DNA from: Blastocatellia bacterium
Lineage (GTDB): Bacteria; Acidobacteriota; Blastocatellia; HR10; J050
Length of the DNA stretch: 64,000 nucleotides
Direction: 5' to 3'
NCBI GenBank assembly: GCA_025054955.1
Contig: JANWZE010000055.1
Span: forward strand, 1-64,000
Shown: piece by piece, positions 38,429 to 47,950 of the stretch
How positions within the stretch are numbered: position 1 is the first letter of the stretch
Layout: the number at the start of each line of letters is the position of its first letter
Notes under the pieces: model-generated
Told to the model about the DNA's origin: nothing
The model's input: only the letters and a program-made list of their open reading frames with translations
Database searches by the model: none
Translations under genes and position numbers: made by a program

Positions 38429-38485
38429 CTTCAATTTCCAATGAAGTCACAAGGGAAACAGTCAGAGCACAAGGAAACGACTTCC

Positions 38486-38866
38486 ATGCCAGGACTCACA
38501 CGTCGGCGAGCCGTTATTCTAGAAGTCGTGCAGGCCAGCCATGGACATCTGACGGCGAGCGAGATTTATGAAGCAGCCCGACGAGTGCTGCCCGGCTTGA
38601 GCTATGCAACGGTCTACAACTCGCTCCGCTACCTGAAGCAGAAAGGTTATCTGCGTGAGATCACATTCGGGAATGCCGCTAGTCGGTATGATGCTGATAC
38701 GAAGCGCCATGATCATGCGATCTGTTCGCGCTGTGGCGCGCTCGTAGATTTCGATCTACCTGAGACGCCGGGTTTGATGCGTGCGGCCGCGCGTCGTTCG
38801 CGTTTCAAACCGGAGTCCATTCATCTCACATTGATCGGACTGTGTCCTGAGTGCCGTTCGGATTAG
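38486..38866 (+). CDS. perR: Fur-family peroxide regulator (PerR-like)
   Basis: The 126-residue DNA-binding regulator has a winged helix (HLTASEIYEAARRVLPGLSYATVYNSLRYLKQKGYLREI). It has the metal segment KRHDHAICSRCG and a second CxxC (GLCPECRSD) for structural zinc. PerR is inferred over Fur from the promoter box and the adjacent peroxiredoxin. ATG 38486 follows AAGGA at 38471-38475. The ATG at 38441 lies only ~10 nt after the expected transcription start and has no RBS. Confidence 0.83.
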   Translation: MPGLTRRRAVILEVVQASHGHLTASEIYEAARRVLPGLSYATVYNSLRYLKQKGYLREITFGNAASRYDADTKRHDHAICSRCGALVDFDLPETPGLMRAAARRSRFKPESIHLTLIGLCPECRSD

Positions 38867-38944: not shown

Positions 38945-39511
38945 ATGTCAGCAGCATTTGAAGCACTTGAATCAGCAATGGTCGGGCAACCGGCCCCAGA
39001 TTTTGAGATGCCTTCAACGAAGAACATCGCAAAGTTGAATGAACCCGTAAGATTGTCCGATTATAGGGGCAAGTGGCTTGTTCTTCTGTTTTATCCATTG
39101 GATTTTACCTTCGTATGCCCGACTGAGTTAACGGCATTCAGCGATCGGTACGCTGAGTTTCAAAGTATCGGCGCTGAGGTCTTGGGCATTTCAACCGATT
39201 CGGTTTATTCGCACCGCGCCTGGCTTCAGACGCCCCGTGACAAGGGAGGCGTTGAGGGACTTCAATATCCGCTCGCGTCTGATCTGACCAAAGAGGTCGC
39301 TCGCAAGTATGGAGTGCTGGTTCCAAACCGGGGTATCGCGCTGCGGGGCTTGTTCGTAATTGATCCGGAGGGCATTTTACGCTACAAGGTTGTTCATGAT
39401 TTGAACATCGGTCGTTCGGTCGAAGAGACGTTGCGAGTCATTCAAGCGTTACAGACCGGCGGTCTGTGCCCAGCCGAGTGGAGACCTGGCCAAGAAACCT
39501 TGAAGGTCTAA
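38945..39511 (+). CDS. Typical 2-Cys peroxiredoxin (AhpC/Prx1 group)
   Basis: The 188-residue thiol peroxidase reduces H2O2 and organic peroxides. The peroxidatic Cys is in DFTFVCPTEL, and the resolving Cys is in GGLCPAEW near the C-terminus. The conserved PLDFTF and the Arg in ALRGLFVID are present. The start follows AAGGAGG. It sits 78 bp after perR and is a likely PerR target. No ahpF is present; the reductant may be the thioredoxin-like protein that follows. Confidence 0.93.
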   Translation: MSAAFEALESAMVGQPAPDFEMPSTKNIAKLNEPVRLSDYRGKWLVLLFYPLDFTFVCPTELTAFSDRYAEFQSIGAEVLGISTDSVYSHRAWLQTPRDKGGVEGLQYPLASDLTKEVARKYGVLVPNRGIALRGLFVIDPEGILRYKVVHDLNIGRSVEETLRVIQALQTGGLCPAEWRPGQETLKV

Positions 39512-39577: not shown

Positions 39578-40054
39578 ATGCCAATGAGGATTGGAACGCC
39601 TATACCGCCGTTGGATGGAGCAACTGAGTGGGTCAATGGCACGGTTGCCGATGCCATCGCGCAGGCTAGTGGTCACATTACGCTGGTGCATTTTTGGTCC
39701 ATCAGTTGTGGTATTTGCAAAGAACACCTGCCGCGTGTAGCAGAATGGCGAGACCGATACCACGATCAAGGTTTTCGTGTCATTGCCGTTCACATGCCAA
39801 GGTATCCGGCGGATACAGATGTCACGGCTGTGCAGCAGGCCATCATCGAGTATGGAATCACGCAGGTGTGTGCGATTGATAATCTGCATAAGCTGCGCGA
39901 CGCATTTCAAAACGATCAGGGCTTTGTCCCCGCTTATTACCTCTTCGACAGCGAAGGGAAACTCCGAAGCTTTGCCGCAGGTGAGCGTGGCCTGGACCTC
40001 GTTGCGGCTGCATTGAATCGGCTGCTGTCGGCGACGCAAAAAGCTGGAACATAA
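39578..40054 (+). CDS. Thioredoxin-like protein (TlpA/ResA type)
   Basis: The 158-residue protein has a thioredoxin fold. The active site in VHFWSISCGICKEHLPRV is a CxxC (CGIC). No signal peptide is seen, so it is probably cytoplasmic. Later segments GFRVIAVHMPRYPADTD and FVPAYYLFDSEGKLR fit the TlpA family with a cis-Pro-like position (VPAYY). Position and function suggest that it reduces the upstream peroxiredoxin or the nearby AhpD-like protein; this is inference. Confidence 0.82.
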   Translation: MPMRIGTPIPPLDGATEWVNGTVADAIAQASGHITLVHFWSISCGICKEHLPRVAEWRDRYHDQGFRVIAVHMPRYPADTDVTAVQQAIIEYGITQVCAIDNLHKLRDAFQNDQGFVPAYYLFDSEGKLRSFAAGERGLDLVAAALNRLLSATQKAGT

Positions 40055-41611: not shown

Positions 41612-41709
41612 AGTGGCCTTACTCCTGCGTCAATGAGAATGAAGCAGTATTGTACACGAAGCCCGACTGGCTTGACAGTCCGTCGTCCGCAGCGACACAA
41701 TGCCGGCGT

Positions 41710-42267
41710 ATGGCCTGGATCAAAGTCATTCCACCAGACGAAGCCACCGGCACGCTTAAGCAACAGTACGATGCTGCTATCAAGCGAGCAGGCCGCGTGT
41801 TCAATGTGGTCAGCGTTCAAAGTCTCAATCCACACGCCTTAGAAGCCTCGATGCGCCTCTATCTGACGTTGATGTTTGGTCCGTCCGGCCTGTCGCGCGC
41901 GCAGCGAGAGATGATCGCTGTGGTCGTTTCAAAAACGAACGAGTGTTTCTACTGAGTTGAAGCGCACGGAGAGGATCTCCGTCAGGCGACAGGTGATGAT
42001 GAATTGGTCCAGCAGATTAAGTCCGACTACCGTCAGGCCAAGCTGGATGCACGCACGCGCGCCTTACTTGATTATGCTGTGGCTGTGACCCGCGATGTGC
42101 ATCAGGTCAGTCGCGCGACGATTGACGGTTTGCGAGCGCACGGACTGACTGACGAAGAGATACTGGATGCCACGCAAATCATCGGGCTGTTCAACTACTA
42201 CAATCGTTTGGTTGATGCGCTTGGCGTCGAGCCGGAAGATTTCATGGCTGAGTCAGTGGGACAGTGA
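41710..42267 (+). CDS. AhpD-like peroxidase-related selenoprotein (in-frame TGA = Sec82)
   Basis: Read with TGA 41953-41955 as selenocysteine, this is a complete 185-residue carboxymuconolactone-decarboxylase/AhpD-fold protein. Homology is continuous across the TGA: LSRAQREMIAVVV, then NECFYU, VEAHGEDLR, and the C-terminal IIGLFNYYNRLVDALGVEP. The active site Glu67-Cys79-Sec82-His86 has the same spacing (12, 3, 4) as Glu118-Cys130-Cys133-His137 of mycobacterial AhpD. The Cys-to-Sec swap thus falls exactly on the second Cys of CxxC. A SECIS-like hairpin follows the TGA. There are no other in-frame stops or shifts. ATG 41710 has a weak RBS; a TTG at 41650 is possible. It probably reduces peroxides with thioredoxin-type help. 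Confidence 0.85.
41953..41982 (+). promoter_or_regulatory. Bacterial SECIS-like hairpin after the Sec TGA
   Basis: TGA at 41953-41955 is followed by a perfect 7-bp stem, ACGGAGA (41966-41972) with TCTCCGT (41976-41982), closed by the loop GGA. The apical loop begins 17 nt after the TGA. It has G at the first positions, within the usual bacterial SECIS rules (about 16-37 nt, G in the first two loop bases). Such hairpins bind SelB and direct selenocysteine insertion. Confidence 0.75.
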
Positions 42268-43482: not shown

Positions 43483-44353
43483 AGTAGTTTTCAGATGGCG
43501 CGCAATGATACAACGAGCGTTGTCATTTGTCATTGGCCGCTGGCGCGACAAGTTCGCATTTGCCGGCGAGCTGTGAGCGACCATGTGGCGCTAGAGACGT
43601 GCATCAGCAGTGATGTCTGAGGACCACAGACGAAGCGCCTTGCCGATTAGGAGGCGTTGTGTGTGTCGCCGGTAGCGACGCGGAATCGTCCTTATACTCC
43701 ACGCACGTCACACGCAATGAAAGGACTCACACGGAGACACGGAGAGCAGGGAGAGGCTCAGTTGGCGGTCTTTGTGTTCTTAGTGTCTGCGTGAGGAAAT
43801 TTTTCACAGGAACCGCTTATATGCTGAGGCACGCCACGAACCACGAAAATGTTGTTTCAAGGGAATCGCCCATGAACTTACGTTCGCCACGAAGCATGAA
43901 AATGGCGCACAGGCGGGAATGCCTGTGCTACTTTTTGAGAGGAGCATGCGTTTTGGAGTGCGGCGGCAAGCCTGCAGGCGCGACGCCGCTTTGGCCTGGT
44001 GCGTCGTGTCGGGACAGAAAGCGCCGTCGGCGCTTCGCTCTGCCGGCGCACTTAAGATAAAGTCAGGAATCGCCCATGGGCTTACCCTCGCCACGAGGCA
44101 TGAAAATGGCGCATAGGCAGGAATGCCTGTGCTACTTTTTCAGAAGAGATGGAAATTCTCAGTCACGAATGAGCCCTTGGCTTGCTCGTCCTGCCGCTGC
44201 CTCAAAAGCTCACACGGAAACGAGACCCGAGTTCAGCGACCGCATCACAATAGATTTTTCTGTGTTCCTGGTGGCGAGCTGGTGTTGCTGTCGCCTTGTC
44301 TTGACACTGATGGCCAATTGGCCTATCAATTGCCTTCATTCTGGAGCCGAACT
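43483..44353. repeat. Long intergenic repeat cluster before feoB
   Basis: No gene is supported in these 870 bp. 43953-44055 is a foldback element related to 27951-28055. REP-like copies (GCGCACAGGCGGGAATGCCT) lie at about 43908-43936 and 44112-44140. Phrases such as GAATCGCCCATGAACTTACG (~43862) and AGGAATCGCCCATGGGCTTA (~44064) recur. A CACGGAGACACGGAGAGCAG low-complexity stretch lies near 43731. The feoB promoter must be close to 44300. Confidence 0.6.
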
Positions 44354-47366: not shown

Positions 47367-47950
47367 TCCTCTATATCTATAGCAATTTTCAATTGCCTTT
47401 GGCCTGGAGGCCCTGCATCTTGCGAGCTAATGTGCACGCTGCAAGCAGGCGCTCCCAGAGTCAACTCATTCGCAAACCGCGCTAAGTCTCGATGTACATC
47501 GGTCTCGGCTATGGGTTCTCCATCCGCCGCCGGATAGTCAATCAGTGTCGCCGGAACTGATTGGCGTGCCCTCGTAGCTCACCTCGCAGAAACGTTACTG
47601 TATTACGCCGCTCCTGTCAGACACAACCACAATGTCATTACCAATTGGCCTACGAAAGACCACGTTTCACGAAGCAATTGCCCATGTGCTATCGCAAATG
47701 TGGTGCAGCTATCATTGCCAACCGCGGTCTAGACGTTTCACGAGGCAATCGCCCATGTGCTATCGCACACCACGAAGGACGAAAATGGAATTCTTTCGTG
47801 AACTCCGTGTGTTTCGTGGGTTATCTTCACACGAATCGCCTATGAGCTCCGCGCTCGCCACGAAGGATGAAAACCTGGGAGCACCCGCTCTTGCGGGCTC
47901 CGGCGCGCTGGAAGCGTGCACTCCAAGGATAAACTCATTCACAAACCGCT
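47367..47950. repeat. Intergenic repeat cluster with MITE-like copy 2
   Basis: 47381-47483 is the second full copy of the ~102-bp MITE-like element. 47663-47696 and 47734-47767 are a 34-bp direct repeat (CGTTTCACGA(A/G)GCAAT(T/C)GCCC...). 47790-47825 matches 27853-27888 inverted. GCACTCCAAGG at ~47918 resembles the foldback-element end. The MITE end motif recurs at 47930-47953, up to the TGS-GTPase stop codon. No gene is seen. Confidence 0.65.

Follow-up and report, generated by a model that had tools for sequence, protein, structure and literature searches.

Evidence for an AhpD-fold selenoprotein gene with an in-frame TGA codon in a Blastocatellia bacterium

The gene locus

The plus-strand reading frame lies in a window of 64,000 nucleotides, i.e. 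the whole stretch of DNA that was analysed, and extends from an ATG at 41710 to a terminal TGA at 42265–42267 (Table 1). A further TGA at codon 82 constitutes its sole internal stop, as originally predicted from the sequence. The start at ATG 41710 is backed by the N-terminal sequence MAWIK, which is conserved in relatives; the end of the gene is conserved there as well. An open reading frame caller operating with translation table 11 cuts the gene into two frames at 41650–41955 and 42004–42267, and automatic annotation would likewise split it in two.

The flanking genes, coding for an isochorismatase-like protein and an MFS transporter, were not found beside the homologues within ca. 1.5 kb, and therefore no operon partner is inferred. 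A Cys-type peroxiredoxin and a thioredoxin-like redoxin are encoded 2–3 kb upstream, for which no partnership is claimed because the genes within ca. 1.5 kb of the homologues differ from those around the present gene. An open reading frame ahead of the peroxiredoxin gene (38441–38866) resembles by its sequence a regulator of the Fur/PerR type, and the segment 38441–40054 might represent a small peroxide-response cluster. Downstream, short related direct repeats of 50 to 83 nt with 60–94% identity occupy intergenic positions at 43802–44148 and 47662–47787; they share the core AATCGCCCATG and are probably copies of a dispersed intergenic repeat. A Pfam scan of ten other TGA-read frames in the window yielded no convincing second selenoprotein; a frame with a DUF2752 domain was rejected, as its TGA sits well upstream of the domain.

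Table 1. Positions of the gene, its functional elements, nearby redox genes and TGA-bearing paralogues
Feature	Position	Strand	Basis or remark
Gene of the AhpD-like/peroxidase-related selenoprotein, 185 residues including Sec82	41710–42267	+	TIGR01926, PF02627, conserved ends, fold
In-frame TGA predicted to be read as selenocysteine (Sec82), position 2 of the CFYU motif	41953–41955	+	codon conservation
Cys79, position 1 of the CxxU motif	41944–41946	+	invariant in the alignment
SECIS-like hairpin	41966–41982	+	ACGGAGA 41966–41972, loop GGA 41973–41975, TCTCCGT 41976–41982
Peroxiredoxin, Cys-type	38945–39511		2–3 kb upstream of the selenoprotein gene
Thioredoxin-like redoxin	39578–40054		2–3 kb upstream of the selenoprotein gene
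Paralogue loci with TGA in related genomes	G001:C73:110336–110872; G002:C281:8706–9242; G029:C133:54160–54690; G029:C121:12315–12842

Family and fold

When translated through codon 82, the protein matches the family TIGR01926 ("peroxidase-related enzyme") with 172.2 bits (E = 9e-51), which exceeds the curated cut-off of 81.8 bits. The match spans residues 2–177 and thus bears out the predicted homology on both sides of the TGA without a shift of frame. The CMD family PF02627 (E = 2.8e-18) and the AhpD core domain TIGR00778 were also matched. The protein is not AhpD proper, because it reaches 26.2 bits against TIGR00777, whose cut-off is 191.95. The alkylhydroperoxidase-related (seleno)protein family NF041238 (AhpD_rel_CFYUT), corresponding to the Sargasso Sea "hypothetical protein 1", shares the homologous domain and the CFYU motif named in it; the score of 75.6 bits stays below the cut-off of 175, and only positions 151–342 of the 357 model positions are covered.

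The AlphaFold model of the read-through protein is all-helical and predicted with high confidence (pLDDT 95.2). The best solved folds are those of the Cys-type peroxidase-related proteins 2pfx, 3c1l, 6k40, 2prr and 2oyo (TM 0.86–0.90, 2pfx being the best match with 0.89), to which the present protein is homologous over nearly its whole length. In the alignments, CFYU is matched by CFYC in 2pfx and by CVYC in 6k40; in contrast to the five CxxC proteins, the present one carries CxxU. Glu67, Cys79, codon 82 and His86 are found at the positions given in the original prediction, and their spacing of 12, 3 and 4 residues equals that of Glu118, Cys130, Cys133 and His137 in AhpD of Mycobacterium tuberculosis (PMC3141380). 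All four positions are invariant among 18 aligned sequences, when Cys and Sec are treated as equivalent at residue 82.

These data also bear on the possibility that the locus encodes two separately translated proteins, an N-terminal piece of 81 residues (101 from TTG 41650) and a C-terminal one of 87 residues. Both open reading frames formally exist, but the model shows one fold, predicted with confidence, in which the TGA falls inside the active-site helix (residues 80–94). Moreover, the stretch from the TGA to TTG 42004 is conserved in frame at the protein level, and the Cys homologues are built up from one chain. We regard the chance of two independent products as negligible.

Conservation of the TGA codon

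Homologues were sought in 58 related genomes. Among 32 aligned homologous loci, including that of the window, codon 82 is TGA in 27 and a Cys codon in five, so that the TGA aligns with Cys as anticipated and its coincidence with the catalytic Cys is not random. Outside the window, the homologues most similar to the gene (72, 72, 56, 58, 55, 54 and 55% identity) each contain one TGA, and the codon is conserved at the equivalent position down to ca. 35% identity. Some loci of the relatives gave apparent matches with two TGA codons, which probably count the terminal stop because the query had kept its own stop as a residue; a second internal stop was found at no locus within the aligned part. Several relatives possess two or more TGA-bearing paralogues (examples in Table 1).

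A single TGA lies only one base away from the Cys codons TGC and TGT, and an isolated case would be indistinguishable from a point mutation in a pseudogene or from a sequencing or assembly error. The identical codon is, however, shared by 27 homologous loci, which belong to many genomes; the part of the gene behind it shows conservation at the protein level and includes a hairpin under constraint (see below). A misread TGC/TGT or a frameshift at 41953, named beforehand as evidence that would speak against a selenoprotein, is ruled out because the TGA is shared by independent genomes. Sequencing error, pseudogene and frameshift are thus excluded for practical purposes.

A search of genome contigs revealed only two relatives of the Cys type. 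The protein tree, whose topology is partly unresolved and which includes some long branches, requires three changes between Sec and Cys, and it is therefore probable that the exchange happened more than once. A more far-reaching scenario, which we consider doubtful, is that the peroxidase-related family in this bacterial class is mainly of the Sec type with repeated Sec/Cys exchange and that the clade with the signature CFYU-x-EAHGEDLR, to which the window gene and its nearest homologues belong, may be a separate subfamily that is exclusively of the Sec type and acts on a substrate of its own.

A constrained SECIS-like hairpin

Ten unpaired nucleotides separate the TGA from a hairpin whose GGA loop begins after 17 nt. 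In bacterial SECIS elements the apical loop lies 16–37 nt from the UGA (PMC10778597) and is small and contains a G (PMC1088965); the hairpin conforms to both rules. In single-sequence folding its stability is ordinary for a sequence of this composition (z-scores of -1.1 and -1.6), and an Rfam search over the hairpin at a permissive threshold gave no match. Due to the weak folding scores, the hairpin was assessed by synonymous constraint and by counting base pairs.

In the eight closest TGA genes, including that of the window, synonymous variation in codons 86–92 drops to 0.139, compared to 0.57 upstream and 0.52 downstream of the TGA, and is the minimum of all 171 seven-codon windows. The same codons again form the lowest window when all 27 TGA genes are considered (0.224 versus 0.57), whereas the five Cys homologues display no such dip (0.571). 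Across 23 TGA sequences 92.5% of the hairpin pair cells are occupied by standard pairs, compared to 85.6% in shuffles, none of which was as high, and to 30–57% for slid partners. The covariation score exceeds those of all 500 shuffles. Two-sided covariation is confined to one pair (columns 17/27), which switches between C-G and G-C/G-U across clades by few evolutionary events. This switch appears to couple the change between Gly87 and Ala87 to a silent substitution in the codon for Leu90, which would not be demanded by protein constraint alone.

Selenocysteine machinery

The genome of the window (4.69 Mb, 99.48% complete) was searched for the sel genes. The selA, selB, selC and selD genes, whose absence had been put forward as an argument against the prediction, were all found over their cut-offs: tRNA-Sec with 68.7 bits, also reported by ARAGORN as tRNA-SeC with the anticodon TCA, SelA with 591 bits, SelD with 380 bits and SelB with 354 bits, the latter including the SECIS-binding winged-helix domains SelB-wing_2 and SelB-wing_3. 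SelD (L019:1501–2427, equivalent to 15973–16899 of contig C44 of genome G000) is itself a selenoprotein candidate with an in-frame TGA in the motif HGAGUACK.

Co-occurrence of selA with the TGA gene is little informative because nearly all relatives have selA (53 of 58 over the cut-off). Three well-assembled genomes without selA (G050, G055 and G057) likewise lack the TGA gene; G002 and G054 have the TGA gene but no selA over the cut-off and are fragmented drafts of 480 and 940 contigs, respectively.

Decoding of the TGA as an amino acid other than Sec, such as Cys or Trp, by codon reassignment or near-cognate suppression would agree with the Cys found at residue 82 of the Cys homologues. It is nevertheless highly improbable in view of the complete Sec system including tRNA-Sec(UCA), SelA, SelB and SelD, of the termination of the very same gene at a TGA, and of the constrained downstream hairpin, which is needed by SelB-dependent decoding but by no reassignment.

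Proposed decoding and catalytic function

The conserved TGA, the sel genes and the constrained hairpin together back the original prediction of an AhpD-like selenoprotein with TGA at the second active-site Cys. We consider the locus to be a genuine selenoprotein gene for an AhpD-fold oxidoreductase of the TIGR01926 family, in which UGA codon 82 is decoded as Sec, with a probability of roughly 96%. Sec incorporation at residue 82 and a catalytic role of this residue are both deduced from sequence data. In the scenario proposed, tRNA-Sec and SelB would decode the UGA, directed by the in-frame SECIS hairpin with its loop 17 nt downstream. The product would be a thiol/selenol oxidoreductase with a C79-F-Y-U82 centre, in which Glu67 and His86 probably serve as proton relay. 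In mycobacterial AhpD, Cys133 is the cysteine that attacks the peroxide. The selenol of Sec82, placed at this position, is probably the attacking nucleophile, and Cys79 would then resolve the selenenyl-sulfide, the outcome of the cycle probably being the reduction of a peroxide or a disulfide. Judged by the family, peroxide reduction is the likeliest activity.

Relation to known selenoproteins

An "AhpD-like protein" with a CxxU motif was described in 2005 from the Sargasso Sea on the basis of 27 sequences (PMC1088965). The GOS survey of 2008 counted 299 selenoproteins of AhpD-like 1 (COG2128) and 70 of AhpD-like 2 (pfam02627), and a review of 2026 placed the AhpD-like CxxU proteins under TIGR01926 (PMC13188914). 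The present gene shares with the Sargasso Sea type (COG2128) the family model, the CxxU motif, the SECIS hairpin just past the UGA and the widespread Cys homologues; only sequence detail and the host differ, and Sec forms are common in the present bacterial class. The kind of protein has thus been known since 2005, and the gene adds a member to it without changing the current understanding. What it contributes is a TGA-read AhpD-like gene accompanied by the sel genes and by a SECIS element for which constraint could be demonstrated. The Sec/Cys pairs among the relatives lend themselves to comparisons of AhpD-fold enzymes that would reveal the benefit of Sec.
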